From a candidate division KSB1 bacterium (GTDB lineage: Bacteria; Zhuqueibacterota; Zhuqueibacteria; Residuimicrobiales; Krinioviventaceae): a stretch of DNA of 64,000 nt. The DNA lies in the NCBI GenBank assembly GCA_034521575.1, contig JAXHMJ010000003.1, positions 434,001 to 498,000 on the forward strand, written 5' to 3'. The notes under the pieces were generated by a model. It was not told the origin of the DNA. It was given only the letters and a program-made list of their open reading frames with translations, and made no database searches. The position numbers and the translations under genes are program-made. Below are positions 29,234-59,699 of the stretch, one piece after another (positions within the stretch are counted from its first letter, which is position 1; every line of letters starts with the position of its first letter).

Positions 29234-29258
29234 AGTAAAAGTAAATAAAGGTGTGATC

Positions 29259-30884: not shown

Positions 30885-30916
30885 TCGCAATTAATGGCTT
30901 TTAATTGGAGATAAAC

Positions 30917-32236: not shown

Positions 32237-32270
32237 TGATTGCACGATTTTTAATTGAGTTGGAGTGGTT

Positions 32271-34727: not shown

Positions 34728-34741
34728 TAAAGGAAAAGAAA

Positions 34742-36250: not shown

Positions 36251-36380
36251 AAAGGCACTCGTATATAAATATATGGAGATTGAATTCTGTTCCTGATAAA
36301 ATATTAAACAACAGGGCATATCTAGTGAAAATTGTGATGCTTTTATTTTACGTTTCATATTTCAAGAAAGGTTCCATTTT

Positions 36381-37664
36381 ATGAAATGGTCAAAAAATAT
36401 AGGGATGTTGATGAGCCTGGGGATAATGTGTTTTTGTGCAGGATGTGCAAAACAGGACAGCATTCTAACTCGTATGTACCCATTTGCTTTTAAAGTGATG
36501 GTGAGCAATCCTGCGGAACTGAATCGTTTTGAAGAGCCTGTAGTAATCTCTGTTTCCGATATTCAGGAAATTAATTCACAATTCAATCCTTTTTCATTTG
36601 TGGTATTGGCTGAACAGGGTGGTACTTTTAATAAAGTGCCGTCTCAGGCTGTAGATTCAAAAGGAAATGGCAAAAAAGATCAAATTCAATTTATGGTCCA
36701 ATTGTCACCAAAAGCACAAAAAACATATACGATTCGTTTTTCAAGTGACACAAAAAAAGAACCTGATTATCTGACACGTTCTTATGCTGAACTCTCTGTA
36801 AAAAAAGGCGGTTATTTTAAAGACAACAAATATATAGGCGGATCATTCCATTCTATCGATTCCCTTCGAGTTCCGGCGCAGCACACCGATCATTCTTTTT
36901 ACATTCGTTATGAAGGCCCCGGCTGGGAGTCAGATCTTGTCGGATACCGGTTCTATCTGGATTGGCGGAATGCCATTGACATTTTTGGCAAGAAAACAAC
37001 GAATATGGTGCTTGATCAGGTGGGGCAGGATGGATTTGACTCCTATCATGAAATGTCTGACTGGGGCATGGATATTCTCAAGGTGGGTGAATCCCTGGGT
37101 ATCGGTTCTCTGGGTATGTGGCATCATAACCGGGCAGAACGATTGTCTGAAACTGATAGTGTGATTTGCATCATTCAGGAAGATGGCCCGATTTATTCGA
37201 GAATTCAGACCTGCTATTATGGATGGCAGATTGATCAGGATGAATTTGATGTGAAATCAAATCTTTCTATTTCTGCCGGCAGTCGGATGACATGGCATCA
37301 GGTTGATATTCAGGGCAATCCCGTAAATCTATGCACCGGTCTGGTGAAACATGAAAATGCGAGTATGGTACAACAAGATTCATCCGGCGAGTGGGGGTAT
37401 TTGTTCACTTTTGGTCAACAAAGTTTATCCCATGATCATCTTGGAATGGCGGTTGTTTTTCCGAACAATCAATTTTTAAAGTTTGATACCGATGAGCACA
37501 ACCATGTTGTTGTGCTAAAACCGGAAAAGGGCCAGCTGCAATACGGCTTTCTTGCGGCCTGGGAACAGGATCAAGATGGCTTTCAAACAAAAACTGAATT
37601 TGAAACGTATTTAAAACAGGTGTGTGAACAGTTGTCAAATCCACTGATTGTTGAAATTCAGTAG
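36381..37664 (+). CDS. DUF4861 family lipoprotein
   Basis: A 427-residue lipoprotein (lipobox 'CFCAGC') whose sequence ('VVISVSDIQEIN', 'HTDHSFYIRYEGPGWESDLVGYRFYLDWRNAIDIFGKK', cited by 'GPGWESDLVGYRFYLDWRN', and 'FDSYHEMSDWGMDILKVG') matches the DUF4861 family. Members occur in loci for breakdown of uronate-rich plant and algal polymers. I do not assign a reaction. It has a beta-sandwich-like, Trp/Tyr/Asp-rich pattern as in carbohydrate-active enzymes. GH97 begins 25 bases after its stop. Confidence 0.8.
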   Translation: MKWSKNIGMLMSLGIMCFCAGCAKQDSILTRMYPFAFKVMVSNPAELNRFEEPVVISVSDIQEINSQFNPFSFVVLAEQGGTFNKVPSQAVDSKGNGKKDQIQFMVQLSPKAQKTYTIRFSSDTKKEPDYLTRSYAELSVKKGGYFKDNKYIGGSFHSIDSLRVPAQHTDHSFYIRYEGPGWESDLVGYRFYLDWRNAIDIFGKKTTNMVLDQVGQDGFDSYHEMSDWGMDILKVGESLGIGSLGMWHHNRAERLSETDSVICIIQEDGPIYSRIQTCYYGWQIDQDEFDVKSNLSISAGSRMTWHQVDIQGNPVNLCTGLVKHENASMVQQDSSGEWGYLFTFGQQSLSHDHLGMAVVFPNNQFLKFDTDEHNHVVVLKPEKGQLQYGFLAAWEQDQDGFQTKTEFETYLKQVCEQLSNPLIVEIQ

Positions 37665-37689
37665 ATGTAAAAATAAAGGAATAATATTT

Positions 37690-39624
37690 ATGAAAAGTTA
37701 TACGCTTTATAGCGGTTTGATGTTTTTTTTGATTATTTGCGTTTCTTGTTTGAACGCATCTGAATGGGAAGCGAGTTCTCCGGATGATCGATTGCGCTTG
37801 ATTGTAAAGAAGGATGCTGATGAGTATCTATACTATTGTCTTACATGCCAAAACAGCACGATTCTGGACTGGTCAAAATTAAGTATGGGACTAGAAGATC
37901 GAATGATCGGTCGAGATCTGATTATAAGCAATGTGTCGATAGTCGCTATTCAGGATGAATATAGACTGGTTCATGGAAAGCAGAAATCTGTTCGCTATAA
38001 AGCGAATGAAATGGTTTTATCCATGCAGGATCAAAAAAAACAACAATATAATATCATGTTTAGAGTGTATAATGACGGATTGGCATTCAGATATGGTTTT
38101 TTAGGCAGCCAGAAACAACTCACCCTTAATCAGGATTTAACCACATTTTGCGTGAATAAAAACAGTACAGGATTTTTACAGCCCTATCAAAAACCGGGTA
38201 AAAATACACCTTCCTATGAAGAGAGTTTCTATCATCTCAAAAATTTAAGCCAAACCTCTCCGACAGGTGTGGGCTGGGCTTTTCCTGCTTTATATTCCAT
38301 TGAGGGTGACAGACACTGGATGCTTGTTACCGAGGCAGGCCTTGACGAAACGCAATGTGCTTTTCATTTTAAAACCGGTAATAAAACAGGGGAATATCGT
38401 TTTGTATTTCCCGAACCTGATGATGGGAACAATTATGGTAATGCGTTTCCGGAATGTGATCTTTGCTGGTATTCACCGTGGCGCGTCTTTATTGTCGGCG
38501 ATTCACTCGAGGATATTGTAGAATCTACGTTGATTACACATGTAAATCCGCCTGCACAGAAAGATGATTACAGCTGGGTACGTCCCGGCAGGGTGTCCTG
38601 GAGCTGGTGGTCCACCAGACCGAACTCGGTGAATTATAATTATTATAAAAAGTTTATTGATCTGGCGGCGGATATGAATTGGGAATATTCGCTCATTGAT
38701 GCCGGTTGGCCCGAGTTGGGTGAAAATCAAATCATCGACCTCGTAAATTATGCAAAAACCCGAAATGTGGATATCATTCTCTGGTACAACTCGGGAGGTC
38801 CCCAAAGTGGTTCACATCACAGTCCCATGCATCGACTCTGGCAGCAATCCATTCGTCGGGAAGAAATGCAATGGCTGAATAAAATCGGCGTCAAGGGAAT
38901 TAAGGTTGATTTTTTTGTGAGTGACAAGCAGGAGATTATCAAATATTATCTCGATATTTTAAAGGATGCAGCAGAATTTCAATTAATGGTTAATTTCCAC
39001 GGCTGTACGCTGCCCCGTGGCTGGTCCAGAACGTATCCCAATTTAATGACAATGGAAGCCGTCAATGGTGCGGAAAGATATTTGTTTAAACCTTCTTATA
39101 AAGATAAAAGTCCTGAACAAAATACAATCCTGCCCTTTACCCGGAATGTGGTTGGCCCTATGGATTTCACGCCTGTCACCTTTTCAGCTGAATCCAGAAA
39201 AACCACACAAGCCCATGAACTGGCTCTTTCCGTTATTTTTCAGTCCGGATGGCAGCATTTCCCGGACAAACCGGATGTTTATCAACAGTCACAATGGAAC
39301 GATTTCCTTCAAAAGGTCTCCAGCGACTGGGATGATGTTCATTATATTGATGGTTATCCTGGTGACTTTGTTTGTCTTGCAAGAAGACACAAGGATGATT
39401 GGTATTTTGCTGCAATTAATAGCGGCAGTGAAAAGACGATAAAAATGTCTCTGGACTTTATAAATCCCGGTGAGTATAAAAGTACGTTGTATCATGACGA
39501 GTCTGAACACTCTAAAACGATGCAGGTTAGTCCCATAAGGATAAAAACAACCGATATACCGGAAATTCCGGTTGGAGAGAATGGAGGATTTGTTTTTGTC
39601 TTGAAGAACAGTTTCAAAAAATGA
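37690..39624 (+). CDS. GH97 alpha-glycosidase, retaining type
   Basis: A 644-residue enzyme with signal peptide, an N-terminal beta-supersandwich ('WEASSPDDRLRLIVKKD', 'YNIMFRVYNDGLAFRY'), a TIM barrel ('RVSWSWWSTRPNS', 'EYSLIDAGWPE', 'GIKVDFFVSDKQEII', 'NFHGCTLPRGWSRTYPNLMTMEAVNGAE', cited by 'TMEAVNGAE') and a C-terminal beta domain. The Asp in 'IKVDFF' is the nucleophile of the retaining alpha-galactosidase-like subgroup; inverting SusB-type members lack it. The start is the ATG at 37690, since upstream codons do not form a signal peptide. Confidence 0.92.
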   Translation: MKSYTLYSGLMFFLIICVSCLNASEWEASSPDDRLRLIVKKDADEYLYYCLTCQNSTILDWSKLSMGLEDRMIGRDLIISNVSIVAIQDEYRLVHGKQKSVRYKANEMVLSMQDQKKQQYNIMFRVYNDGLAFRYGFLGSQKQLTLNQDLTTFCVNKNSTGFLQPYQKPGKNTPSYEESFYHLKNLSQTSPTGVGWAFPALYSIEGDRHWMLVTEAGLDETQCAFHFKTGNKTGEYRFVFPEPDDGNNYGNAFPECDLCWYSPWRVFIVGDSLEDIVESTLITHVNPPAQKDDYSWVRPGRVSWSWWSTRPNSVNYNYYKKFIDLAADMNWEYSLIDAGWPELGENQIIDLVNYAKTRNVDIILWYNSGGPQSGSHHSPMHRLWQQSIRREEMQWLNKIGVKGIKVDFFVSDKQEIIKYYLDILKDAAEFQLMVNFHGCTLPRGWSRTYPNLMTMEAVNGAERYLFKPSYKDKSPEQNTILPFTRNVVGPMDFTPVTFSAESRKTTQAHELALSVIFQSGWQHFPDKPDVYQQSQWNDFLQKVSSDWDDVHYIDGYPGDFVCLARRHKDDWYFAAINSGSEKTIKMSLDFINPGEYKSTLYHDESEHSKTMQVSPIRIKTTDIPEIPVGENGGFVFVLKNSFKK

Positions 39625-39727
39625 CAGTATGTTAATTGTTTCCCTTGATTAAAAATTTTGCCATCGTGTGGCTGAAACATCAAGATGAATGATTGCTGAT
39701 TTTTTTAACGACAATGAGAGGTGTTTT

Positions 39728-41311
39728 ATGTCTATTTCAAGAAGAAGGTTTATCCAGTCAACAACATCCTTGTTTGGTATGGCTGCAGCAGGTGCCTGGT
39801 TGACAAGTTGTCAAAAGAAAATTTCAAAACCCAATATACTGCTGATTATGGCTGATGATATGGGGTTTTCTGACCTGGGGTGCTACGGATCTGAGATAAA
39901 GACACCTCATATTGACCGACTGGCTCGGGAGGGCTTGAGATTCACACAATTTTATAATGCAGCGAGATGTTGCCCGACCCGTGCCTCTCTGTTGACAGGA
40001 TTATATCCTCATCAAGTCGGAATGGGCGGTATGGTCGTTCGAAAACCGGATGAGAGCTATACAGGTGCTTATCAGGGATATTTAAATAATGAATGCGTAA
40101 CTCTGGCTGAAGCATTGAAACCTGTCGGATACACCACACTTATGTCAGGAAAATGGCACGTTGGTGAATTTAGACCTGTCTGGCCGGTTGATCGCGGTTT
40201 TGACCGGTATTGGGGACTGATCAGTGGTGCGGCAAACTATTACAACGTTACCCGCACTAAAAATCATCAACCGATACGAACAATGGCACGGGATAACGAA
40301 GAAATTCCACTCCCGACTGAGAACTTTTACATGACCGATGCTATTACTGAAAATGCAATAGAGATGTTGAAAGAGAATAGCGATAAACCCTTTTTTCAAT
40401 ATGTTGCATATACAGCACCGCATTGGCCTCTACATGCTTTGCCCGAGGATATAGAGAAATATAAAGGCAAGTATATGGAGGGATGGGATGCTTTGAGAAA
40501 AAAACGTTATCAAAAAATGGTCGAACTGGGTATCATCCGCAAAGAATGGGGCTTGTCTCCAAAAGATGAGGGTGCAATAGATTGGGAAAATGTTCCAGAT
40601 CACGAATTAATGGATTTAAAAATGGCCATATATGCGGCTCAAATTGACCGTATGGATCAGGGGGTCGGAAAGATACTCCAAACGCTCCAGGAACAAGGTC
40701 GTCTGGATAATACAATTGTACTTTTTCTTTCTGATAATGGCGCTTGCTCCGAGTATGGACCGCTTGGACATGATTTTTGGGAAAACGGTGTGTTGCCTGG
40801 CGGTGAAGAATCCTATCAGAGTTATGGGAGATCATGGTCAAACGCCTCCAATACGCCATTCAGGCTGCATAAACATTGGGTTCATGAAGGCGGTATTGCC
40901 ACACCACTGATTGTGCGTTGGCCCCAAATGATTCCAAAGGGCGGTAAGATGACCCATCAACCCGGTCATATTATTGATATCATGGCAACCTTGATTGATA
41001 TTGCAGGAGTAGAATATCCGTCCAATAATAATGGGAATACTGTACAACCACTACGAGGAAAGTCTTTACTGCCCGTTTTAAGAGGCAAAGTCAGGGAACC
41101 CCATTCCTATTTGTTCTGGGAACATGAAGAAAACAAGGCTGTTCGTCACGGAAAGTGGAAATTGGTCGCTGAATCCGGCAAAGAATGGGAGTTGTATGAC
41201 ATAGAAAGCGATCGATCAGAAATGGATGATTTAGCCGCGGAACATCCGGAAATTGTCAAGGAAATGAATATTGCCTGGGAACAATGGGCAAACAAGGTTG
41301 GAGTGAAATAG
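39728..41311 (+). CDS. Sulfatase/arylsulfatase (S1 family), Tat-type signal
   Basis: A 527-residue second sulfatase, of the arylsulfatase A type. The leader 'ISRRRFIQSTTSLFGMAAAGAWLTSC' has twin arginines and a lipobox-like Cys. The core motifs are 'KPNILLIMADDMGFSDLGCYG', cited by 'LLIMADDMGFSDLG', 'ARCCPTRASLLTG' (formylglycine Cys in CxPxR), 'SGKWHVGEF' and 'LFLSDNGACSEYG'. It is not closely related to the sulfatase at 34742 and probably acts on a different sulfate position. It is the last gene of module A. The ATG is preceded by a weak GAGAGG site. Confidence 0.94.
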   Translation: MSISRRRFIQSTTSLFGMAAAGAWLTSCQKKISKPNILLIMADDMGFSDLGCYGSEIKTPHIDRLAREGLRFTQFYNAARCCPTRASLLTGLYPHQVGMGGMVVRKPDESYTGAYQGYLNNECVTLAEALKPVGYTTLMSGKWHVGEFRPVWPVDRGFDRYWGLISGAANYYNVTRTKNHQPIRTMARDNEEIPLPTENFYMTDAITENAIEMLKENSDKPFFQYVAYTAPHWPLHALPEDIEKYKGKYMEGWDALRKKRYQKMVELGIIRKEWGLSPKDEGAIDWENVPDHELMDLKMAIYAAQIDRMDQGVGKILQTLQEQGRLDNTIVLFLSDNGACSEYGPLGHDFWENGVLPGGEESYQSYGRSWSNASNTPFRLHKHWVHEGGIATPLIVRWPQMIPKGGKMTHQPGHIIDIMATLIDIAGVEYPSNNNGNTVQPLRGKSLLPVLRGKVREPHSYLFWEHEENKAVRHGKWKLVAESGKEWELYDIESDRSEMDDLAAEHPEIVKEMNIAWEQWANKVGVK

Positions 41312-41932: not shown

Positions 41933-44900
41933 ATGAAAACAGTTGGATTACTTGCGCTGATGGCGCTTTTGACGGGTTTGAGTCTGAACGCTCAAACTCT
42001 GGACAGTGTCAAATATTGTTATGACCTTGAGATAGAAGATATTGACTGTAAAGGCGACACCGGCAATGTGATTGATGTACAACGATTTGATCCCGCGCTG
42101 GGGCGTCTCGAAAACGTGCGTATGCATCTCAAAATGGATGTGGAACACACATTTAAAGTTGAAAATACCGCTGCCGGAGAGTCAGAGGTGGCGCTGGATA
42201 TTTTCAGTGATGTGAGCTCCGGTCTGCCTTTGAATGTCACCGCACTGATGCAGACAAAGGTGGAAATTGACACGATCTATCTGGATGCTTATGATGGAAT
42301 TACGGATTACGCAGGCCCCTCCGGATATCAGATCGATGGTCTTGTCGGCAGCGGCGGTCCCGCCAATACGAACGAAACTGAAAAAGTTTACAGCGGCCAG
42401 GATCTGGTTGATTTTCAATTTGCGGGTTCAGGAACGTACCCGACCAAAACCTGCGAACAAACTTCTTTCAGTGTGTACGGCGGGGGCGGGAATGCAGACA
42501 TGAATATCATTACCAACGGCACGGTTCAGCTTTGCGTGACCTATTATTATGTCAAAGAGTCGGATCTTTCTCTGCAGAAAACCGTATCTGCCAATTATCC
42601 GGCGGTTGGCGATAGCGTGGATTTCAGAATTACGGTGACCAATGACGGACCCACCCTCGCTACAGGTGTAGAGGTGAGCGATCCGCTGCCCGTACCGTTG
42701 ACAGCGGTCGCCCCCATCCAGACCGGTTATGATCCGGTTTCAGGTATCTGGACTGTGGATTCTCTAACGACAGGAGAGAGCAAAGAACTGAATATTCGCA
42801 CGGTCGTGAATACAGGAGGCGCAACCGTTACCAATATTGCACAGGTCTCTGCCTCTGATCTTCCCGATCCGGATTCCGAGCCCGATAATAACGAGTCCGG
42901 CGAGGACGATCAGGATGAGGTTCAGGTTACGTTATATCAGCTCGGTCAGATCGGTGATTATGTCTGGTTTGATGATGACCGTCAAGGGGATCAGGATAGC
43001 GGTGAATCCGGTGTTGACAATGTACGAATTTGGCTTTATGATAACGCGGGCAATCTTTTGGATACCCGGGTCACCGATGCTTCGGGCGCTTTTATGTTTT
43101 CGGATTTGCATTGGGGAGACTATGTGATTGTACTGGATCGAACCAGCCTGCCCGAGGATTACGAGTCACTGATTTCAGATACTGTTTTTGTTGATCTTGA
43201 TCCCGGTGCGAGTTATCTTGAAGCCGATTTTCCGGTGGCAAAGGCGTATTCAAAACTTGGCGATTATGTCTGGCGTGATCTTGACCGGGATGGCGTTCAG
43301 GATGCGAATGAACCCGGTATTGAGAATGTGCGCTTGTTCCTGGAAAACGGGACGGGTGTGATTGACACGGTCGTCACGGATGAACAGGGGTATTACCTGT
43401 TTACCAATATCGAGGATACGCTGGTTCAGATTGTTCTGGACACAACAACCATTCCTCAAGGGTATGAACTCACCAGTGGAACGATTCCCGGTGGATTTTT
43501 GCAAACGCCGCCCGGAACTGTCCGTCTTGATCTCGATTACGGATTTCATTATTTCCATGGAAGTATCGGCGATCTGGTCTGGTATGATTTAAACCGGAAT
43601 GGGACTGTGGATGAGGGAGAGCCCGGCATCTCGGATATGATTGTATATCTCCTAAATGAAAAGGGTGAACGCATCGCAAAAACAGTGACGGATCAGCAAG
43701 GCAAATATACGTTTAAGAATATACCGCACGGTTCCTATACGATCGCAGTCGACCTCAATTCGGTTCCGGGGTATTTCAGCATGACAACCGATGATTCTAT
43801 GGCTGTTGAATTGAAAAAATATCAAAATTATGTGCTTGCGGATTTTGGATTCTGGAGTCCTGCTGCAAAGTATATGCAGGGCGGGCAGCGAAAAGTTCTG
43901 GCCTGGTACGAAAACTCACTGCAACCTTCACCGCTTGTAAAACAGGATTATGAGCATCAGGATGTGTTTTACGGGAATTCCTATACATCCACACGCTATG
44001 AATACGATATCCTGCTTGCCTGGGCGTCGGGTATTGACGGGTTTGTGGTAGAATGGTACGGCCAGACCGACAACCCATCCAATCCATCCTCACAGCGTTT
44101 GCTGGCCCTTTTGCATACCGCACATGAAATGAATGAACGCTACCGGGAATCCGGTTTTCGGTTTGAGATCATAGCCGTGCAGCATGAAAATTCGGTTGGA
44201 ACCTGGGAAGAGAATTTTCAGTTCCTGGCTGATTCTGTTCTCCAACATCCCGCTTATTGGGGCAGAGGCGACAATTCGTTTGCACCGTTGTTTGTTTTTC
44301 ATAATGAGCAAACAATGCTGGAGCCGAAGAAAATCTCCCGGCTTGCGGATCGATTGCTCCCGGATTTTGTTTATTTGGGCTGGAACGAGGGCTATAATCT
44401 CTCGGTATTTGAAGATTTTGACCTTCTGTATCCCTGGGTTCAGCCCATGAATCGGGAGTACGATACAGAATCCGGTTTGCTCTGGGGAGACCAATACCTA
44501 AATTTTGAATATAACAATATGAACCGTATGCCGGACAATGCAGATATTTTGTTTTCCATTGGTGCGGTTTGGCCGGGATATAATAATGGATCAAAGAGTC
44601 AGCCCCGATTTATTGATGCTCAGGACACTCTGGTCTATCAAAAGACATGGGAAAAGGTTTTGGCCTACAGTAATCATAAAAATATTTTTGAACAATTGCC
44701 TATGGCATGGACGCTGATTCAGTCCTGGAATGTTTTCTCAGACAAGACGGACATTGTCACCACACATGAAAATCGATACAAATTTGAGAGAATGACACAG
44801 CGTTACAGCCGCCTGTTCAAAGGTGATGAAGAACGACGCGTTTCTTCGGACCTGGGATTGCTGGTGCCGTCAAAATTACGGCAAGTTAGAATCAAAGCAA

Positions 44901-46150
44901 TTCAGCATCCTGAAATATCCTGGCAGCTTGATTTTGCAGCAACGCGTGCCATGGCGAATTATTTTGTTCAGGATTATCAAGAAGCCGTCAGTATTCTTGA
45001 TCAGGCGCTGGGTCTGGCGCCTTCAAAGGTGCACGTGCTGGAAAGTGCGGATACGTTTATCGAACTCGAGTGGGATGCTGCAGCGGCTGCCAATGCCTAT
45101 CATATTTTTTATTCAAAAGATTCCACTGATTTTCAAATCAATTCACGTGAATGGCCGGACGTGCAGACCCGGTACACGACGAAAGCGCGCCTAAAAGGTC
45201 TGGAAGCGGGAAATGTCTATTATATTGCTGTGGCGCCTGCGGATACAGCGCTTGATGCGTACACCCATTATGGCTGGTACCGGAATCAATTTTCAGATGC
45301 AGATATCATCGCGGTAACCCTCAATAAGAATAATGACGACATCATTCCGCCGTCCCCGGTGCATCATGACAATCACCTCGTTTTTGTTTCCGGTTCTCCC
45401 ACTTTTAAAAAGGGGGAACAGCAACTGGACTGGTCAAATGCTGTAGACGGCGATTACACAGGCTGGGATGCAACGGTCTGGGCGCAGGGTTCGGATAAAC
45501 CGTCCGATACAGCCTGGGCTATTTTTGAATTTGCTGATCATGCCCGTTATCAGTTTAATTATGTGGCATTAACCACGGATAACGGCAATGACGATAATAA
45601 TTATCATTATTTGAAAACAAAACGGATTGAAGTATGGGTTTCCAATACGGGAACAGACCCTGACGATTTTCATAAAGTTCTGAATACGTTTTTCAAATCC
45701 GACGGTACTGAACGGATGTGGGCGCCGCTGCAGGAATATGTAAAAGCAAAATATGTGATGTTGCGCTTGATCTTTCCGCATTACCACCAGGGAGGATGGC
45801 GGCAGATCGTTGAATTTGAGGTTCACACGCAAGAAAAACAAGGCGCGGTGCCCGCTTCTGAGAACCAGGCATTTAAAACGGTGCCCGGCTCTTTTTCCTG
45901 TGAATCCAATTTCCCAAACCCCTTTAATCCATCCACCACAATCCGCTATACCCTGGCCGAGGCAGCGGATGTAAGCTTGAATATCTATAACCTGAACGGC
46001 CAGCTTGTTGAAACGTTGGTGCGCGAATATCAATCCGCCGGAAGCTATCAGGCGACCTGGCATTCGGATGAACATCCGTCAGGTGTTTATATTTATCGGT
46101 TAAACGCCGGATCTTTTTCCGCCGTGAGACGGATGACTTTATTGAAATAA
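41933..46150 (+). CDS. Giant secreted surface protein: DUF11, SdrD-B repeats, GH99-like and discoidin domains
   Basis: A 1405-residue exported protein. The order is signal peptide; an N-terminal domain like 'choice-of-anchor E' (about 30-208: 'FDPALGRLENVRMHL', 'YDGITDYAGPSG'); one DUF11 domain (213-335); three SdrD B-like repeats (340-640: 'GDYVWRDLDRDGVQDANEPG' is one of the Ca2+-loop cores, cited as 'DLDRDGVQDANEPG'); a GH99/GH71-like barrel (650-990: 'RKVLAWYENS', 'IDGFVVEWYG'); a fibronectin III-like segment; a discoidin (F5/8 C) domain (1165-1300); and a type IX sorting tail ('NFPNPFNPSTTIRYTL'). It is probably a surface glycosidase on a rigid stalk. The ATG at 41933 has GGGAG upstream. 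Confidence 0.88.
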   Translation: MKTVGLLALMALLTGLSLNAQTLDSVKYCYDLEIEDIDCKGDTGNVIDVQRFDPALGRLENVRMHLKMDVEHTFKVENTAAGESEVALDIFSDVSSGLPLNVTALMQTKVEIDTIYLDAYDGITDYAGPSGYQIDGLVGSGGPANTNETEKVYSGQDLVDFQFAGSGTYPTKTCEQTSFSVYGGGGNADMNIITNGTVQLCVTYYYVKESDLSLQKTVSANYPAVGDSVDFRITVTNDGPTLATGVEVSDPLPVPLTAVAPIQTGYDPVSGIWTVDSLTTGESKELNIRTVVNTGGATVTNIAQVSASDLPDPDSEPDNNESGEDDQDEVQVTLYQLGQIGDYVWFDDDRQGDQDSGESGVDNVRIWLYDNAGNLLDTRVTDASGAFMFSDLHWGDYVIVLDRTSLPEDYESLISDTVFVDLDPGASYLEADFPVAKAYSKLGDYVWRDLDRDGVQDANEPGIENVRLFLENGTGVIDTVVTDEQGYYLFTNIEDTLVQIVLDTTTIPQGYELTSGTIPGGFLQTPPGTVRLDLDYGFHYFHGSIGDLVWYDLNRNGTVDEGEPGISDMIVYLLNEKGERIAKTVTDQQGKYTFKNIPHGSYTIAVDLNSVPGYFSMTTDDSMAVELKKYQNYVLADFGFWSPAAKYMQGGQRKVLAWYENSLQPSPLVKQDYEHQDVFYGNSYTSTRYEYDILLAWASGIDGFVVEWYGQTDNPSNPSSQRLLALLHTAHEMNERYRESGFRFEIIAVQHENSVGTWEENFQFLADSVLQHPAYWGRGDNSFAPLFVFHNEQTMLEPKKISRLADRLLPDFVYLGWNEGYNLSVFEDFDLLYPWVQPMNREYDTESGLLWGDQYLNFEYNNMNRMPDNADILFSIGAVWPGYNNGSKSQPRFIDAQDTLVYQKTWEKVLAYSNHKNIFEQLPMAWTLIQSWNVFSDKTDIVTTHENRYKFERMTQRYSRLFKGDEERRVSSDLGLLVPSKLRQVRIKAIQHPEISWQLDFAATRAMANYFVQDYQEAVSILDQALGLAPSKVHVLESADTFIELEWDAAAAANAYHIFYSKDSTDFQINSREWPDVQTRYTTKARLKGLEAGNVYYIAVAPADTALDAYTHYGWYRNQFSDADIIAVTLNKNNDDIIPPSPVHHDNHLVFVSGSPTFKKGEQQLDWSNAVDGDYTGWDATVWAQGSDKPSDTAWAIFEFADHARYQFNYVALTTDNGNDDNNYHYLKTKRIEVWVSNTGTDPDDFHKVLNTFFKSDGTERMWAPLQEYVKAKYVMLRLIFPHYHQGGWRQIVEFEVHTQEKQGAVPASENQAFKTVPGSFSCESNFPNPFNPSTTIRYTLAEAADVSLNIYNLNGQLVETLVREYQSAGSYQATWHSDEHPSGVYIYRLNAGSFSAVRRMTLLK

Positions 46151-46165
46151 ACAGGAGATGATATC

Positions 46166-49100
46166 ATGAATAAATATATAAATATAATTATATTCACGGT
46201 TCTGGTTTTTGCGGCCTCCGCCTGGTCCCAGATCACCACACAGACGGTCGAGGACTCGACAGGGTGGATGACGACTGACTGGACCGAATCGGTTGTTCTG
46301 GATCAATTTGATTCGTCGCTTGGACGCCTGGTGAGCGCAAAGCTCGTGATCAATGTCGCCAGTCTTCAGACAGTCAAAGTTGAAAATCTGGAAGACCGGG
46401 AAGCTACGGTCACCGTCAAAGGCATCCTGAATGTCGACGCGACTCTTCCCGAAGGTGGAACACCGGTAGAGTTGCAATCTGTGGCCACAGCCGGGGAACA
46501 ATTTTATCAAGCCTGGGACGGATCAACGGATTATGCGGGGGGGTCCGGTCGAATTGATGAAGATTTGGTTGGAAGTTCTCAGTTTAATCAGGATCGCTAT
46601 GAAAAGACCTATACCGGAACGGACCTTGCTCAATTTATTGGCACGGGCACGGTTTCTGTGGACGGAAATACCGATGCCTATTATAACGTCAGCGGCACCA
46701 CCGGCAAAGTCAGCGCTGAGGTCATTGCGGATGCCAATATGGGAGTTCAGATTGTCTATACCTATTCCCGCGAGGCTGATCTGGAACTGTCCAAGCAGTT
46801 GGATGTTTCCTCTCCGGAAATTGGAGACACGCTGACTTTTACATTAACCGTGAACAATAACGGCGGCCCGCTTGCGGTGGACGGTGTTGTGGTGAGTGAT
46901 CAGCTGCCCGCTAATTTGAGCTTTATCAGTTCGGACGGCGACGGCTCTTACAATGAAACCACCGGTGACTGGACAGTGGGTGACCTGGCGATTGATGAAA
47001 GCAAACAGATTCAGATCAAGACCGAGGTCACGGCAAGCGGAAACACCGAGAATACAGCGGAAATAACAGCAGCTTCCCTGCCGGATCCCGACTCGGAGGT
47101 CAATAATGACAATCCCGCAGAGGATGATCAGGATGCGGTGTCATTTGACGTGCCGCCTCAGGCTGATCTTTCTCTTGAGAAAACGGTCAATCAGACAACT
47201 CCCAATGTGCGAGACGAAATTGAATATACGCTGACGGTGACCAATGACGGGCCGGATGCGGCGGAAAATATAATCGTGACCGATCAGCTGCCGACCGGAT
47301 TGTCGTTTGTTTCAGATAACAGCGGCGGCGACTATGATGAGAGCACCGGAGAGTGGGAGGTGGGTAATCTGAATGTCGGTGAAAGCCAATCTATTGTCAT
47401 TCGGGCGCGTGTAACCCGATCCGGAACCATCAACAACAGCGCTGAAATAACCGCTACCGATACGGATGATCCGGATTCTACGCCGAATAATAATCTGCCC
47501 GGTGAGGATGACCAGGATAATGTGGAAATCAACGTCCCCAATGCGGCGGATTTGTCTTTGCAGAAAACCACCAGCGTGGACAGTATTCGTGCCGGGGAAG
47601 AATTTGATTTTCTGATTACAATTACGAATGACGGTCCGGATGCGGCAAATAATGTCGAGGTCACTGATGTTCTGGACAGTCGTTTGACTTTGGTGTCCTC
47701 AAGTGCGACCCAGGGAAGTTACAACAGCAGCACGGATATCTGGACTGTCGGTACGGTTGCAAACGGCGCCACCGGCACATTGACCCTGACGGTTAGCGCG
47801 GATGACGAATATGATTTGCCCATTGAAAATACGGCCGAGGTGTCTGCGAGCGATGAGTATGACCCGGATTCCACCCCGGGTAACGGCGATCCTGATGAAG
47901 ATGATCAGGATGATTCCAATATCACATCGGTAAAATATGCGGACCTGCAGCTGACCAAAGCAGTCGACGAGGCAACCCCGTATCTCGGTTCTCAGGTTAC
48001 CTTTACGTTAACGCTTGAAAATTCCGGACCGGATCCTGCCTTTAATGTGGTGGTCAATGATGTGCTGCCTGCCGGTCTGTCTTTTGATTCTTCCACACCC
48101 TCGCAAGGCAGTTATAATCAGAGTACCGGCGATTGGTCTGTGGGTGATATCGCAGTCGGAACAACCCATACTCTGACGATCACCGCCACGGTCGACGAGC
48201 CTGACGAAATCACAAACACAGCGCAGGTGAGTTCAGCTGAACCGCTGGACCCGGATTCCGAGCCGGGAAACGATGATCCCGATGAGGATGATCAGGATCA
48301 GGTCACTCTTGATCCGGTGTCCATCGACCTGGACCTGAGCAAATCGGCCAATCAGAGTCAATATTTTTCCAATGATACCGTGGTCTATACTTTGACGTTG
48401 GTCAATAACGGACGCAAAACCGCAAACAATATCGAGATTACAGATGCAATCCCCGCCGGCCTGACCGTGGACCGTGTAACACCTTCGGCCGGAAACTGGA
48501 GCGCGCCTATCTGGAGTCTTGATTCCCTGAACAGCGGCGCCACGGAAACGCTGTCTATCCGGGCTGTTCCAAATACGGTCGGCGATTTCGATAATACCGC
48601 CGAGGTGACAGCAGCGGATGAACCGGATGTGGATTCTACCCCGAATAACAACGCGCCTGATGAAGACGATCAGGATACGGCGGATATCACGGTTCGGGAA
48701 TTGGTGGATCTCAGTCTGCAGAAAAGCGTGGATAATGCTTCGCCTGCAGTCGGCGGACAGGTTGTGTTTACTCTCACCGTATCAAACGCCGGCCCTGATA
48801 ACGCAACTCAGGTTGTTGTCAAGGATGTATTACCGGATGGCCTCTCGTTTGTCAGCGCCAGTCCGGCGGATTATGACGCGGCAACCCATCAGTGGACGGT
48901 GGGAAGCGTGGCCGGCGGTGCGCAAGCCGGCATTGATATCACTGCACGTGTGGACCGCGCCGGGGTGTTTGAAAATACGGCCGAGGTCTCTGCACAGGAT
49001 CAGGAGGATGCGGACAGCACACCGGATAATGGTGATCCTGCTGAAGATGATCAGGACTCGGCTGAACTTCAGGCCGGTGAGGCTGATCTCAGTCTGACCA

Positions 49101-51295
49101 AGAGTGTTTCCGCTGATTCGGTCATGCAGGGCGTGGAATTTGATTTTGTGGTCACGATCACCAATAACGGCCCGGACGATGTGTCCGAGGTCAATGTGAC
49201 CGATGTATTGCCGTCCGGTCTTACTTTGGTGACCGGATCTCCGGATTATGATGAAAATACCGGCGTATGGTCGGTTGGTGAACTGGCTGATGCTGAATCG
49301 AAAATCCTGACCCTTGTCGTACAGGCTGACGCTGCCGGGGAATACAGCAATACGGCTCAGGTGACGCTCAGCGCCGTTCGGGACCCGGATTCAACACCGG
49401 ATAATAATGATGCGGATGAAGATGATCAGGACACCGCGGATGTGCAAGTCTATGCTCCCGGATCGATTGGTGATTACGTGTGGGCGGATTATGACGGCGC
49501 CGGCGACCAGGACGCGGGAGAACCCGGTATTGAAAACGTCAGAGTGCTGTTGTTGTCCGCCGCAGGTGATACCCTGGCCGAGACTATAACAAACAGTTCC
49601 GGCGGGTATCTGTTCAGCGATCTGGACCGGGGTGACTATAGCGTGGCGATTGACGCCTCTACCGTGCCTGCAAATTATAATCTGACAACAACCGAGCCGC
49701 TGGCTGTAAACCTGTCGCCGGAAGAAAATTATCGCAGCGCGGATTTTGGTTATCAACCGGAGCCGTCATCAATTGGTGATCTCGTTTGGGGCGACCTGAA
49801 CAACAACCAATTGTTTGACAGCGAAAATGGATTGTCCGGCATCGAACTGGAATTGTCACAAGACGGGAGTGTGATTGCCACACAGACAACCGATTCCAAC
49901 GGCAATTATTTGTTCGAAACTCTGATGCCCGGCACTTTTACGGTCAATGTCGTCGAGTCCACGCTTCCTGCCGATTGGGAACTGACCACCGCGAATGAAC
50001 CGCTGACTGTAAATCTGGGCGCCGGGGAAGACTATCGTGACGCGGATTTCGGATATCGTCCCAGGCGGGCGGAAATCGGCGACTATGTATGGCAGGACAT
50101 CAACGGCGATGGTGTGCAGGACAGCAATGAGCCGGGTGTTGAAACTGTTCGGTTGATTTTGTTCGATGATCAGGACCAGCCGCTGGACAGCGCCCTGACC
50201 GACGCCGACGGCGCCTATTTGTTCGATGATCTGCCGCCGGGCAGCTTTACTGTCAGACTCGATACCAGCAGCATTCCGGCGCAGCATTCACCCAGTACGC
50301 CGACGCAGGTCTCTTACGAACTAACTGCGGGAGAATCCTATCCCCACGCCGACTTTGGATTGTTTCCGGCGCGTGTCTCTATTGGTGATTATGTGTTCTT
50401 TGATTATGATCAAAACGGGACTGAAACTATAGGCAGCAGAAGAGAGTACGGCTTTGAACATGTGCGTCTCATCCTGCTTGATTCTGATGATACAGCGCTG
50501 GATTCTATGTTTTCAGGACCGGACGGCAGATACCTTTTCACTGATTTGCCCTATGGCGACTATTCGGTGCGTGTGGACACATCAACCGCCCCCGATTACC
50601 ATACGCTGACATCCCCGATGCTGATCTCTGCAAGCCTTGAACCGGGTGATCATTACAGTCTTGCCGATTTTGGTTTCTATCGGTATTTGAATGCGATTGG
50701 TGATTTTGTTTACCATGATCAAAATATGGATGGCGTTCATGACCCGAACGAACCACCGATTCCGGGTGTGATCATTCGTCTTTTGGATGAGAATGGAACT
50801 TATATTGCCAAACAGGTGACCGGTCAAAATGGAAAGTATCTGTTTGAACGCCTGGCCCCTAAAAATTATCAGGTAGAGATTGATATGTCCAGCGTACCTG
50901 AAAACTATCAATTGACAACGGGCTCTGCAATCATAGATGTTGAATTGCAGGACAACGACTATCACTATCACTACGATTTCGGTCTCTCGTTTGATCTGCG
51001 AACCCGGTATCCCGGCATCGGTAAAGAGCGAAAGGTGTTTGCCTGGTATGAACCCTGGTATGGAAATGCTGAAAATGATTCAACCTTGCGACACTGGGCT
51101 ATCGATTATAACGGCGGAATCGCTGATACCAGCTACTGGGGATTGTTTGATTCTCACCGGCAGCGCCAATGGGAATATGATATTCTGCAGGCCTGGAATG
51201 TCGGCATTGACGCTTTTGTGGTGGAATGGCATCCTCAGGATACCCTTTATAGTGAAAACTATGAGACGGCCGGTTTGATGGGACTGTTCGGATAA
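46166..51295 (+). CDS. Giant secreted surface protein, second copy, N-terminal part (frameshifted)
   Basis: 1709 residues with signal peptide; anchor-E-like domain (about 25-200); seven DUF11 repeats of about 120-130 residues starting near 203, 331, 460, 592, 719, 847 and 973 and mostly ending in a 'DPDSxPxNxxPxEDDQD' linker; five SdrD B-like repeats starting near 1097, 1200, 1302, 1404 and 1507; and the first part of a GH99-like domain ('RKVFAWYEPWYGNAEN', 'GIDAFVVEWHPQD'). One extra G at 51290/51291 ends the frame at 51295; the rest continues from 51291 in another frame. It is a paralogue of the preceding protein with a longer stalk. An AGGAG site precedes the ATG, 15 bases after the upstream stop. 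Confidence 0.87.
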   Translation: MNKYINIIIFTVLVFAASAWSQITTQTVEDSTGWMTTDWTESVVLDQFDSSLGRLVSAKLVINVASLQTVKVENLEDREATVTVKGILNVDATLPEGGTPVELQSVATAGEQFYQAWDGSTDYAGGSGRIDEDLVGSSQFNQDRYEKTYTGTDLAQFIGTGTVSVDGNTDAYYNVSGTTGKVSAEVIADANMGVQIVYTYSREADLELSKQLDVSSPEIGDTLTFTLTVNNNGGPLAVDGVVVSDQLPANLSFISSDGDGSYNETTGDWTVGDLAIDESKQIQIKTEVTASGNTENTAEITAASLPDPDSEVNNDNPAEDDQDAVSFDVPPQADLSLEKTVNQTTPNVRDEIEYTLTVTNDGPDAAENIIVTDQLPTGLSFVSDNSGGDYDESTGEWEVGNLNVGESQSIVIRARVTRSGTINNSAEITATDTDDPDSTPNNNLPGEDDQDNVEINVPNAADLSLQKTTSVDSIRAGEEFDFLITITNDGPDAANNVEVTDVLDSRLTLVSSSATQGSYNSSTDIWTVGTVANGATGTLTLTVSADDEYDLPIENTAEVSASDEYDPDSTPGNGDPDEDDQDDSNITSVKYADLQLTKAVDEATPYLGSQVTFTLTLENSGPDPAFNVVVNDVLPAGLSFDSSTPSQGSYNQSTGDWSVGDIAVGTTHTLTITATVDEPDEITNTAQVSSAEPLDPDSEPGNDDPDEDDQDQVTLDPVSIDLDLSKSANQSQYFSNDTVVYTLTLVNNGRKTANNIEITDAIPAGLTVDRVTPSAGNWSAPIWSLDSLNSGATETLSIRAVPNTVGDFDNTAEVTAADEPDVDSTPNNNAPDEDDQDTADITVRELVDLSLQKSVDNASPAVGGQVVFTLTVSNAGPDNATQVVVKDVLPDGLSFVSASPADYDAATHQWTVGSVAGGAQAGIDITARVDRAGVFENTAEVSAQDQEDADSTPDNGDPAEDDQDSAELQAGEADLSLTKSVSADSVMQGVEFDFVVTITNNGPDDVSEVNVTDVLPSGLTLVTGSPDYDENTGVWSVGELADAESKILTLVVQADAAGEYSNTAQVTLSAVRDPDSTPDNNDADEDDQDTADVQVYAPGSIGDYVWADYDGAGDQDAGEPGIENVRVLLLSAAGDTLAETITNSSGGYLFSDLDRGDYSVAIDASTVPANYNLTTTEPLAVNLSPEENYRSADFGYQPEPSSIGDLVWGDLNNNQLFDSENGLSGIELELSQDGSVIATQTTDSNGNYLFETLMPGTFTVNVVESTLPADWELTTANEPLTVNLGAGEDYRDADFGYRPRRAEIGDYVWQDINGDGVQDSNEPGVETVRLILFDDQDQPLDSALTDADGAYLFDDLPPGSFTVRLDTSSIPAQHSPSTPTQVSYELTAGESYPHADFGLFPARVSIGDYVFFDYDQNGTETIGSRREYGFEHVRLILLDSDDTALDSMFSGPDGRYLFTDLPYGDYSVRVDTSTAPDYHTLTSPMLISASLEPGDHYSLADFGFYRYLNAIGDFVYHDQNMDGVHDPNEPPIPGVIIRLLDENGTYIAKQVTGQNGKYLFERLAPKNYQVEIDMSSVPENYQLTTGSAIIDVELQDNDYHYHYDFGLSFDLRTRYPGIGKERKVFAWYEPWYGNAENDSTLRHWAIDYNGGIADTSYWGLFDSHRQRQWEYDILQAWNVGIDAFVVEWHPQDTLYSENYETAGLMGLFG

Positions 51296-52796
51296 AGCCC
51301 ATGACCTCAATATCCGATATGAATCCCAGGGATTCCGGTTCAATATCATTTTGGCGTATCACGATAATCCGCAAGATTATTTGCAGCAAAGGCTGACGTT
51401 TGTTGCGGATTCCGTTATGAGTCATCCGGCTTATTACGATGCCGACGACTATGACTTTACACCGCTTTTTGTGTTTCACGAACCTGATGCGCATACCGCG
51501 GCGGAAATTGATTCTGTAGCGGATCGGGTACTGCCTGAGAATACCCTGTTGGCCTGGAATGAGGGCTATGACTGGGATGTATTTCGACATATGGATTTGC
51601 TGTATCCCTGGGCGCAGCCGATGAATAAAAATTGGCATGAACAGGGACAGCGCTGGGGCGATGAATATCTGGATTTTGAATATGAAAATATGAACAAATC
51701 GAGAGGATCGCATGGCGTTTATTTTGCCATAGGCGCTGCCTGGCCCGGTTTTGATGATCGGTCCTGGGTTGACGGCACAGATCGATGGATCGACCGTCAG
51801 GATACTCTGGTGTATCACCAGACCTGGGAAAAGATACATGCCTATCAGCAGCCGATGCCTATGCCCTGGGTGCTGCTGCAGTCCTGGAATGATTTCAACC
51901 GGTCTACTCATCTGGACCTGTCGCAGAATAACCGTTTTACGTTTTTAACCATGACGCGAGATCATATTGCGCGCTTTAAAGCAGATGTGCCGCCCAAAGA
52001 TGATCTGGCTTTGGTCGCAGCTCAGCATTTGCACATGGCCCGGATTTTTGCGGAACAACGACCGCAGGAAAAATGGTTGATCGAGTCCTCTATTGAACAG
52101 GGCTGGAAATCCATTATGAACGGTGAATATTACAAAGCCCTGTCTATTTTTGATCAAGTCATGGGCATTGCTCCCAATCCGCTCACGGTGGAGGTGGGTA
52201 CAGATCAAATTCACTTGTCCTGGCGGGCTGCGCCTTATGCGACGGGATATCGAATCGCTCTGGCTGCGGACAGCGGACCATTTGATATCTCCCATTCCAC
52301 AGCGCCAGCGTTTGTGCGTGTCACCGGCACCGATACGGTTTTGTCCGTCAACTCACTGCCGGTTTACGTGGCTGTGGCGCCGGAGGCGGACCTGGATATT
52401 GTCGGCCGGTTTGCCTGGTACCAAAATGTGTACACACGCGGCGGCATTTATAAAGTGGATCGTTCAGGTGTAACCCGATTACAGGAAGCGGATAAAACCG
52501 TCAACCAGGATATGCAAGTGATCCAGGTTCCTGAGAAAACACAATTGTCACAAAATTATCCAAATCCGTTCAATCCGGTCACAACGATTGAATATCAGCT
52601 TGATCAGGCTCAGCACGTCAAGCTGAATATCTATAATATGAACGGGCGTTTGATGGATCAGCTGGTGAACCAGAGTCAGGATGCAGGTGTTCATCGAATA
52701 CAGTGGCGGGCGCATGATCAACCCAGCGGCTTGTATTTCTATCAGTTGCAAACCGAATCCTTGCAAACGACCCGGCGAATGCTTTTGGTTCGTTAA
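51291..52796 (+). CDS. Giant surface protein, second copy, C-terminal part in shifted frame
   Basis: About 500 codons continue the GH99-like domain without loss: 'DKAHDLNIRYESQGFRFNII' aligns with 'LHTAHEMNERYRESGFRFEII' in the paralogue (each cited as the aligned segment). 'ADRVLPENTLLAWNEGYDWD', 'LYPWAQPMNKNW' and 'WGDEYLDFEYENMN' follow, then a fibronectin III-like segment and a sorting tail ('NYPNPFNPVTTIEYQL', 'SGLYFYQLQ'). The discoidin domain of the paralogue is absent. An ATG at 51351 could start a separate product, but it has no ribosome-binding site and lies inside the fold. The intact gene would encode about 2200 residues. Confidence 0.85.
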   Translation, partial: DKAHDLNIRYESQGFRFNIILAYHDNPQDYLQQRLTFVADSVMSHPAYYDADDYDFTPLFVFHEPDAHTAAEIDSVADRVLPENTLLAWNEGYDWDVFRHMDLLYPWAQPMNKNWHEQGQRWGDEYLDFEYENMNKSRGSHGVYFAIGAAWPGFDDRSWVDGTDRWIDRQDTLVYHQTWEKIHAYQQPMPMPWVLLQSWNDFNRSTHLDLSQNNRFTFLTMTRDHIARFKADVPPKDDLALVAAQHLHMARIFAEQRPQEKWLIESSIEQGWKSIMNGEYYKALSIFDQVMGIAPNPLTVEVGTDQIHLSWRAAPYATGYRIALAADSGPFDISHSTAPAFVRVTGTDTVLSVNSLPVYVAVAPEADLDIVGRFAWYQNVYTRGGIYKVDRSGVTRLQEADKTVNQDMQVIQVPEKTQLSQNYPNPFNPVTTIEYQLDQAQHVKLNIYNMNGRLMDQLVNQSQDAGVHRIQWRAHDQPSGLYFYQLQTESLQTTRRMLLVR

Positions 52797-53454: not shown

Positions 53455-54087
53455 ATGAAATTTGAAGAATTACAACATAGTTTGATGCATCGTCCATTTT
53501 TTGAGAGCCATGAGCTTGTGACGTTATTTGACGAACCGGAAAAGCAAATCATGGCCCGATTGTCCCGTTGGGTTGCTCATGGAAAACTGTTGAGGTTGCG
53601 TCGCGGTAAATATATGCTTCCGGTGCCATATCAAAAAGAGATGGCGTCTTTATTTTATATTTCAAATTATCTCTATCGGCCTTCATTTATCAGTCTTTTT
53701 TCTGCATTACAACATTACCAGTGTATCCCGGAACATGTGCAGGCCATTCAGGCTGTCACCACCCGCCAAACAAAAGTCTGGAATACGCAAGTCGGACGGT
53801 TTCAATATTTCAGCACCCACTCTGAACGCTTTTTTGGCTATGAGCGAGTAAAGTTGGGTCCAGGCCTCCAGCAAACAGCTCTGATTGCCACACTTGAACG
53901 CGCTCTCGTTGATATTTGCTATTTTTATTCGGGCGAATGGACACAAAACCGGTGGACAGAATTGCGGCTCGATCTGCCCGACTTTTTTCAAAGAGAGAGA
54001 TTGCTCGGTTATGCGGATCGAATGCAGAGTAAAAAAGTGTTGCGTTCTGTTCATGCATTACTCAAACTGGTTAATAAAAAACAATGA
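53455..54087 (+). CDS. AbiEi family antitoxin/transcriptional regulator
   Basis: A 210-residue protein of the AbiEi family, the antitoxin of type IV toxin-antitoxin and abortive-infection systems. A winged-helix N-terminus ('FFESHELVTLFDEPEKQIMARLSRWVAHGKLLRLRRGKYML', cited by 'LSRWVAHGKLLRLRRGKYML') would bind the inverted repeat upstream. The C-terminal part ('ISNYLYRPSFISLFSALQHY', 'ATLERALVDICYF') is the antitoxin domain. There is no ribosome-binding site before the ATG. The start of the toxin gene overlaps its stop by four bases. Confidence 0.9.
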   Translation: MKFEELQHSLMHRPFFESHELVTLFDEPEKQIMARLSRWVAHGKLLRLRRGKYMLPVPYQKEMASLFYISNYLYRPSFISLFSALQHYQCIPEHVQAIQAVTTRQTKVWNTQVGRFQYFSTHSERFFGYERVKLGPGLQQTALIATLERALVDICYFYSGEWTQNRWTELRLDLPDFFQRERLLGYADRMQSKKVLRSVHALLKLVNKKQ

Positions 54088-54887
54088 AAGACCAAGCCAA
54101 ACAAATTATACAATCAGCCCAAAATCGCGGGCAAGCGCGTTTGTTACTGCGCGAGTATATTCAGCATGTGATTTTAAGACAACTGTTTGAACAAAAAATA
54201 TTGCAGCGCTGGATTTTCCATGGCGGAACAGCCCTGCGTATTCTGCACAAGGTTAACCGGTTTTCAGAATATCTTGATTTTCATGCAGATTTGTCCAAAG
54301 CGCAGCCTGAATTGTCTAATATGATTGATTCACTTGTTCGGGGACTAAAATATCAGGGATACTCTGTCTCTACAAGATTGGGAGATGAAAATGCAATTGT
54401 TTTTACAGCAATGATCAAATTCAAACATCTGCTATATGAATTGGGATTATCAGCGCATGCTGATGAAAATTTATCCGTTAAAATTGAGTGTGATACCCGA
54501 CCTCCGTCCGGCTATAATGTGGATCAAAGCTTGATCAATACATATTTCCCCATTGGATTGCGACATCATGATCTCTCCAGTTTTTTATCCGGGAAATTGC
54601 ACGCAATTTTACAGCGTGCTTATACCAAAGGCCGTGATTTTTATGATGTCATGTTCTTGTTATCGCGCTGGCGGGATTTAAATCCCAATTTTAAGTATTT
54701 GAATCATGCTTTAAAACAAACCCAATACGCAGGTCCGAAAATCTCCCGGGAAAATTGGAAAAACATTCTGCGTCAAACGATTCAACAACGCAACTGGAGA
54801 ACAATCGTTGCTGATGTTGAACCTTTTTTGGAAAGCAACCCGGATTTGCAAATGTTTACAAAGGAGCATCTGCTGACACTGTTATAA
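54084..54887 (+). CDS. AbiEii-like nucleotidyltransferase toxin
   Basis: A 267-residue protein of the AbiEii/AbiGii family, a DNA polymerase beta-like nucleotidyltransferase that modifies tRNA or related targets. 'WIFHGGTALRILHKVNRFSEYLDF' (cited by 'FHGGTALRILHKVNRF') is the first active-site block, and 'FLSGKLHAILQRAYTKGRDFYDVMFLL' (cited by 'KLHAILQRAYTKGRDFYD') the lysine block. In family members the acidic motif reads SEDLDF; here it is SEYLDF with Tyr at residue 63, so one metal-binding Asp is lost. The enzyme may be inactive. A relic of its 3' end lies at 21774-22044. Confidence 0.88.
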   Translation: MKDQAKQIIQSAQNRGQARLLLREYIQHVILRQLFEQKILQRWIFHGGTALRILHKVNRFSEYLDFHADLSKAQPELSNMIDSLVRGLKYQGYSVSTRLGDENAIVFTAMIKFKHLLYELGLSAHADENLSVKIECDTRPPSGYNVDQSLINTYFPIGLRHHDLSSFLSGKLHAILQRAYTKGRDFYDVMFLLSRWRDLNPNFKYLNHALKQTQYAGPKISRENWKNILRQTIQQRNWRTIVADVEPFLESNPDLQMFTKEHLLTLL

Positions 54888-58737: not shown

Positions 58738-59316
58738 ATGAACACTGAGAAACAACGCGAAAAATTGATTCATGCTATCATCTATTTTGCGAAACATACC
58801 AAATACTGCCACAAATTAAAAATAATGAAATTGTTATATTATTTGGACTTTTGGCATTTTAAAGAAACGGGTAGATCGGTAACCGGGCTGCAATACAAAG
58901 CCTGGAAGAAGGGACCTGTGCCCCCCAAAGTCTATCATGATATTGAGCCCAAAAATAATACCAAAGATTTTGAAAACGCCTTTTTTATTGAAAATGAAGA
59001 ATTTGAAAATGGAATCGGGCATTGTTTGAAAATTATGCCCCGAAAAGAGTTTAATCCCAAAATCTTCAGTAGACGAGAAATTCAAATTCTCGAAAAGGTA
59101 GCATTAATTTTTAATAATGCAAAAGCAAAGGATATGTCGGATTCAAGCCATTTAAGAAATTCTCCCTGGTACAAAACCAGACAGGAAAAAGGTGAGAATG
59201 AATGGATTGATTATCTGCTGGCTTTGGATGATGAAAAAAATTCTATTGATGGTAAAGATATCAAAGATCGTGAACAAATCGATGATGAATTTCAACAGAT
59301 TATTGGGGAGATATGA
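58738..59316 (+). CDS. Panacea-domain antitoxin (PanA-like)
   Basis: A 192-residue Panacea/DUF4065 protein ('AIIYFAKHTKYCHKLKIMKLLYYLDFWHFKETGRSVTGLQY', cited by 'LKIMKLLYYLDFWHFKETG', and 'WKKGPVPPKVYHDI', 'NSPWYKTRQEKGENEWIDY'). Such proteins neutralise many unrelated toxins by direct contact. The stop codon overlaps the start of a MazF/PemK-like gene, so this is a bicistronic PanAT-type pair. Confidence 0.87.
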   Translation: MNTEKQREKLIHAIIYFAKHTKYCHKLKIMKLLYYLDFWHFKETGRSVTGLQYKAWKKGPVPPKVYHDIEPKNNTKDFENAFFIENEEFENGIGHCLKIMPRKEFNPKIFSRREIQILEKVALIFNNAKAKDMSDSSHLRNSPWYKTRQEKGENEWIDYLLALDDEKNSIDGKDIKDREQIDDEFQQIIGEI

Positions 59317-59582
59317 AACCGGGGACGGTGCTGTTTTTCAAAGATTTTATATTTAAAGATGGCAGCAGCAAAGATAAATTGGTGATTATTTTAAATCATC
59401 CCAAGGGAGAAGAGCCTTACCTGCTTTGTACAACGACAAGCCAAAAGCACACAAGAAAAAAAGAACTGGGGTGTCATGCAAAAGAGAATTATTTCTATAT
59501 TGATCAAGATCAGGACGGATTTATAAAGAATACCTGGGTTGTTTCTCTTGATTTCTCTTTTATTTCCAAGAAATTTTGTTAA
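59313..59582 (+). CDS. MazF/PemK-like toxin partner, probably truncated
   Basis: An 89-residue protein with the beginning of a PemK/MazF-like barrel ('PGTVLFFKDFIFKDGSSKDKLVIIL', cited by 'GTVLFFKDFIFKDGSSKDK', 'YLLCTTTSQ', 'YFYIDQDQDGFIKNTWVVSLDF'). It overlaps the Panacea gene by four bases. MazF-like toxins in such pairs are usually longer; the frame stops soon after a strand that normally continues, and no continuation was found with confidence in 59583-59690. It may be a decayed or minimal toxin. Confidence 0.65.
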   Translation: MKPGTVLFFKDFIFKDGSSKDKLVIILNHPKGEEPYLLCTTTSQKHTRKKELGCHAKENYFYIDQDQDGFIKNTWVVSLDFSFISKKFC

Positions 59583-59699
59583 ATTAAACCAACCTTGCTC
59601 GAATAGAAAAAGAAAAGATGGAATAATAGGTCCAGACGGGGTTATACAATGATCACCTATGGTTTTATTAGAAATATAGATACCAAAGGAGCCTGATCC

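Follow-up and report, generated by a model that had tools for sequence, protein, structure and literature searches.

Tandem, probably surface-anchored fibrillar proteins of a candidate division KSB1 bacterium with a predicted glycan-binding pseudo-glycosidase barrel

A window of 64,000 nucleotides from a candidate division KSB1 bacterium contains two adjacent genes for long surface proteins, and the question they raise is whether the glycosidase-like barrel in each of them cuts a glycan or holds it. The original prediction described giant stalked proteins with GH99-like heads that may hold cells on, and cut, a mannan or other polymer. On balance, we consider the pair to be tandem surface-anchored fibrillar proteins with a predicted glycan-binding pseudo-glycosidase.

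Gene 1 (41933..46150, +) encodes, from an ATG and in a single frame, a secreted surface protein of 1405 aa, as given by translation and a Pfam/NCBIfam scan. An N-terminal hydrophobic stretch, read from the sequence as a signal peptide, precedes a choice-of-anchor E domain (choice_anch_E, 42059..42550, +; NF033208, 80.8 bits against a cut-off of 23.8), which is the probable distal tip. A single DUF11 (CLIPPER) repeat with a Lys/Asp/Asn isopeptide triad (42563..42895, +) and three SdrD_B repeats with Asp-rich loops of calcium type (42950..43858, +) come next. The GH99/GH71-fold barrel and its C-terminal helices, assigned by AF2, Foldseek and a profile comparison with PDB, occupy 43859..45016 (+). 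Directly C-terminal to the barrel, where GH71 has a packed beta-sandwich, a weak fn3-like match was found (45017..45235, +; PF00041, 22.0 bits, under the cut-off of 25), followed by a weak discoidin-like (F5/8 type C) domain (45437..45685, +; PF22633, E 0.033) and a T9SS type A sorting domain (45911..46147, +; PF18962, TIGR04183). Stretches related to the discoidin-like region are also present at G000:C5:2395848-2397152, G000 being the window's genome.

Gene 2 consists of choice_anch_E, seven DUF11 repeats, five SdrD_B repeats, the barrel and the T9SS tail, spread over two frames within 46166-52796. The first open frame (46166..51295, +; 1709 aa) reaches from the signal peptide to about the first 70 aa of the barrel, and comprises the choice-of-anchor E domain (46250..46765, +; NF033208, 72.8 bits), the DUF11 repeats, in each of which Lys, Asp and Asn hold fixed positions (46775..49465, +) and the SdrD_B repeats (49466..51001, +). 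It ends at a net one-base frameshift inside the barrel (about 51285..51292, +), with its TAA at 51293-51295. The second (+1) frame (51279..52796, +), which the ORF list starts at TTG 51351, supplies the missing part of the barrel, which extends up to about 52169, together with the T9SS tail at 52557-52793. The domain order that had been predicted, anchor-E, DUF11, SdrD-B, GH99/GH71-like barrel and type IX tail, was confirmed by Pfam/NCBIfam, AF2, Foldseek and the profile, and the counts of one versus seven DUF11 and three versus five SdrD-B repeats proved exact. The claimed discoidin difference stands in that the Pfam/NCBIfam scan gave no match in gene 2, while the match in gene 1 is only weak. 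As for the two giant proteins, gene 1 is indeed a single frame, but gene 2 is broken by the frameshift.

Neither window protein has a significant Pfam match to its barrel, and PF16317 (GH99) gave no hit at its gathering cut-off in these proteins or anywhere in the window's genome. A phmmer search of PDB with the gene 1 barrel alone found nothing, whereas the family alignment profile matched GH99 (4acz, E 7e-16); similarly, a single-sequence scan of the genome contigs for the barrel gave nothing and the alignment-based scan succeeded. Several barrel relatives match PF16317 or PF03659 (GH71), and a few exceed the gathering score. An AF2 model of the gene 1 barrel, built from a 19-row alignment, has a pLDDT of 75.5 and a pTM of 0.84, with a weak region near the beta8 loop (block pLDDT 53-78), and GH99 and GH71 account for every one of its best 23 Foldseek matches in PDB, at TM-scores of around 0.5-0.6. 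Based upon the Pfam matches of the relatives, the family profile and Foldseek together, the barrel is homologous to GH99 and has the (beta/alpha)8 fold; the structure prediction proposed as a check thus agrees with the GH99/GH71 assignment.

Neither gene has a complete catalytic dyad. In the family profile alignment, the GH99 motif N-E-W-H-E aligns with N-[DSTV]-x-x-[RQNHSD] in the clade. The first and last acids of the motif are E333 and E336 of BxGH99, changed to Gln in PDB 5mel/6fwq and 6fwo according to the entry titles. Gene 1 has WNVFSD at this site (44726..44743, +), with Val at E333 and Asp at E336, and gene 2 has WNDFNR (51885..51902, +), with Asp at E333 and Arg at E336. The dyad D/E-x-x-E is therefore V-x-x-D in one and D-x-x-R in the other; the Asp of the GH71 dyad D-x-x-E is kept in gene 2 only, and its Glu in neither. 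The original prediction had named a barrel lacking all catalytic residues as one result that would speak against it, and the search for catalytic glutamates came near to this, a single Asp surviving in each gene. Alanine changes at the dyad residues of AnGH71B/C lower activity 210- to 15,427-fold (PMC12394665).

This pattern extends to the whole clade. Core members score >410 bits across the complete barrel, except that the frameshifted gene 2 reaches 318 and 103 bits with its two fragments. Among 388 genomes they were found only in the KSB1 phylum, and all other matches score at most about 145 bits. None of the 21 core stalked barrels has the GH99 dyad E-x-x-E. Their first dyad position is Asp in 15, Ser in three, Val in two and Thr in one, leaving six members with no acid there; the second, which is that of the catalytic Glu, is mostly Arg (13) or Gln (four), with one each of Asn, His, Ser and Asp, and never Glu. 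In comparison, D/E-x-x-E is kept in 12 of the 13 lower-scoring GH99/71-like proteins compared, the exception being L064, and also in a Chloroflexota relative (L060; D-x-x-E, WNDFEE) and in G138. In the maximum-likelihood tree, all 23 dyad-lost rows fall on one side of a branch (support 98/98, 98% of bootstrap trees) and the ordinary GH99/71 relatives keep the dyad in 11 of 11 cases; the root of this tree is not independently known, and the side opposite the dyad-lost rows has long branches. Since the Chloroflexota relative keeps D-x-x-E, loss of the dyad is likelier than ancestral absence, and it was most simply, and likely, lost once at the base of the KSB1-specific clade. Outside the core, L038 has Asn/Glu and L064 has Asn/Asn at the dyad. 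These two proteins (both in G013) form a sister branch with a laminin-G domain after the barrel and without a recognised stalk, carrying N-x-x-E and N-x-x-N, respectively. L064 was also considered as an ordinary enzyme, and was rejected because the tree and its N-x-x-N motif put it in the dyad-lost clade.

The same domain order was found in about 20 further KSB1 proteins. Barrel relatives come from the order and phylum of the window's genome, candidate division KSB1 where named, with one Chloroflexota outlier; elsewhere in the family to which the window belongs, the clade is absent and only ordinary relatives, or none at all, occur. Barrel and tail hardly change among these proteins, but the stalk is highly variable: the largest repeat numbers are 15 DUF11 (L031, 3155 aa) and 11 SdrD_B (L033, 2922 aa), and at the short end there is just one SdrD_B or none of the recognised repeats. 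A tandem pair in G019 has the same repeat counts as the window pair (1+3, 7+5). In the tree, each window gene pairs with the corresponding G019 gene, which places the duplication before the split of the two lineages. In one further relative (L039, G010:C40:64156-65229) an in-frame TAG lies within the barrel match.

Surface anchoring is predicted from the C-terminal tail. The features of T9SS type A cargo are present, namely the TIGR04183/PF18962 C-terminal domain together with PorU (852.9 bits, cut-off 420) and SprA (452 bits, cut-off 200) encoded in the window's genome, in which a first search gave >100 matches, mostly to the sorting tail. Tails of this type are cleaved by PorU and the new C-terminus is joined to surface LPS, or the cargo is released, so that some T9SS cargo does not stay attached (PMC10202324). 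In our proteins, the PorU sortase would cut off the tail after export and link the freshly formed C-terminus to the cell surface. Given that the sorting tail lies at the C-terminal end, beside the barrel, and that PorU is encoded, the barrel would sit near the membrane and choice_anch_E at the far end of the rod. Proteins of this kind are probably upside down with respect to the stalked head first described, with the barrel at the cell-surface base; the surface exposure, the stalk and the GH99/71-like fold of that description agree with our results. All eight DUF11 repeats of the two genes keep Lys 7, Asp at about 40 and Asn at 90-95, the three residues seen in the crystal structure of the isopeptide-bonded DUF11 (CLIPPER) domain (PMC12617251), and the SdrD_B repeats of both genes carry Asp-rich loops. 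A stiff fibre stabilised by calcium and isopeptide bonds is therefore likely, as judged from these residues. Its rod would be roughly 15-20 nm long for gene 1 and 50-60 nm for gene 2, taking about 4 nm per domain. The AF2 model of the choice_anch_E tip is poor (pLDDT 50).

The barrel most likely descends from a GH71/GH99-type hydrolase and is now a putative non-hydrolytic glycan-binding module. Shared loss of the dyad with a maintained fold would be the pattern expected of a pseudo-enzyme. A canonical glycosidase is unlikely, since neither gene, nor any other member of the clade, has a complete dyad. For the same reason a mannan-cutting enzyme was set aside as first choice; of the function first proposed, cutting is not supported by our results and mannan finds no support. 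The barrel may instead keep a polysaccharide at the cell surface, or a glycan from the capsule or LPS of the cell itself. We consider it about as likely as not that the KSB1 clade converted the active site of a glycosidase into a lectin-like pocket, and that fibres locked by isopeptide bonds and anchored through T9SS carry this pocket at their base.

We consider it rather unlikely that the barrel is catalytically active through another pair of acids and so represents a new glycoside hydrolase family related to GH71/GH99. Relocated catalysis comes into question because other acids of the barrel are conserved (E/D110 in 19, D188 in 18, D202 in 19 and D/E243 in 19 of the 21 core members). Much of the pocket is clade-conserved (D60, W66, PG 239-240, WN 290-291, and E110 in 16/21), which would also fit relocated catalytic residues, the first dyad position is, as in GH71, Asp in 15 of 21 barrels, and an identity of 53% between gene 1 and its ortholog over the whole alignment indicates that the protein is maintained. 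The candidate pair would be the first-dyad Asp of gene 2 with Glu/Asp 110 or with the PGxDD acids. However, the alternative acids are not consistent replacements: in L040 and L042 the dyad is Ser/Gln, yet position 110 is occupied by Arg, and three more residues typical of the clade have been lost in gene 1 (D242 to N, R254 to A, E73 to P).

The frameshift might mean that gene 2 at least is a decaying pseudogene and the pair has no present function in this organism, which is highly improbable although the shift falls inside the barrel. No further stops occur downstream of it, the tail is intact, and the second frame shares 39% identity with the corresponding stretch of gene 1. The gene 2 ortholog in G019 (L029) is a single intact frame of 2213 aa with 58% identity, so the split represents a frameshift within one gene. 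Moreover, the only sprA detected in the window's genome is likewise split between two overlapping frames (G000:C5:125989-131855; L079, L080) despite the >100 sorting-tail matches, which points to residual indels in the assembly. With the intact ortholog and the similarly split sprA, an assembly error is the likely and simplest cause. Programmed frameshifting was rejected, as no slippery run is visible in the sequence at the site and the ortholog has one frame. Alternatively, the pair could be surface capture proteins of an adjacent polysaccharide-utilisation locus for a sulfated, uronate-containing polymer, a reading we find improbable. Such a locus lies upstream of gene 1 on the same strand (22316-41311) and encodes an ECF sigma factor, FecR, a TonB receptor, two T9SS proteins, GH88, GH3, a sulfatase, DUF4861, GH97 and a sulfatase, a content that suggests a sulfated uronate polymer as target; the Arg in the gene 2 pocket would suit an anionic sugar. 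But >600 bases separate the locus from gene 1, and the sampled neighbours of the homologs are unrelated. In 20 other loci, none of the enzymes (GH88, GH3, sulfatases, GH97, DUF4861), nor the TonB receptor or the regulators, stands next to the homologs; the association was seen in the window's genome only. We treat the link as local because the enzymes, receptor and regulators are absent beside the homologs elsewhere, and the pair was rejected as a plain component of the locus since the linkage is not conserved in relatives.

The predicted binding proteins resemble several known systems in part. GH99 endo-alpha-1,2-mannosidase/mannanase (BtGH99, BxGH99, human MANEA) shares the (beta/alpha)8 fold and is the best PDB match by both profile and structure, but its ExxE (E333/E336 in BxGH99) is Vxx[DS] or DxxR in the KSB1 barrels, which add an N-terminal tip and stalk of about 620 or 1600 aa. 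The GH71 alpha-1,3-glucanase AnGH71C shares the fold and, with 15/21 members, the Asp of D-x-x-E, but its general-acid Glu is kept in no core member. CMANEAL, a vertebrate GH99 paralog, is another GH99-fold protein that was inferred to have lost catalysis, probably through an inactivating E404Q change, and is not pseudogenised (PMC11025385); it differs in being eukaryotic, in having one substitution and in not being a surface protein with a stalk. Fibrillar adhesins of bacteria whose stalks contain DUF11/CLIPPER and SdrD_B have the same stalk domains, repeat layout, signal peptide and C-terminal anchor (PMC9210967, PMC12617251), and their features are present here, as signal peptide, tandem stalk domains and a surface anchor predicted from the T9SS tail and PorU. 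The KSB1 proteins differ by T9SS sorting, by the extra GH71/99-fold barrel between stalk and anchor, and by the uncharacterised choice_anch_E domain as tip. The architecture had been presented as undescribed, and no published description was found in the literature searched; it is nevertheless shared by many undescribed KSB1 proteins.

These proteins present a clean case in which the use of a pseudo-glycosidase on surface fibres of bacteria can be put to the test, and the same phylum supplies ordinary relatives with an intact dyad to compare them with. They also add anchoring by T9SS, in an uncultured phylum, to the range of fibrillar proteins built from DUF11 and SdrD_B. A GH99-like annotation in a KSB1 genome may not imply that mannan or glucan is degraded. 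If correct, our reading would define a new class of glycan-binding surface protein; if alternative acids work, the barrels would form a new glycoside hydrolase family.

Some further genes of the neighbourhood deserve mention. The second T9SS protein of the upstream polysaccharide locus is pectate-lyase-like by eye. Just downstream of gene 2 lies an AbiEi-like/AbiEii type IV toxin-antitoxin pair (53455-54887), and at 58738-63230 a gene resembling the SocA/Panacea antitoxin precedes one for an Eco57I-type restriction-modification methylase; together with AbiE, these genes look like a small defence island.
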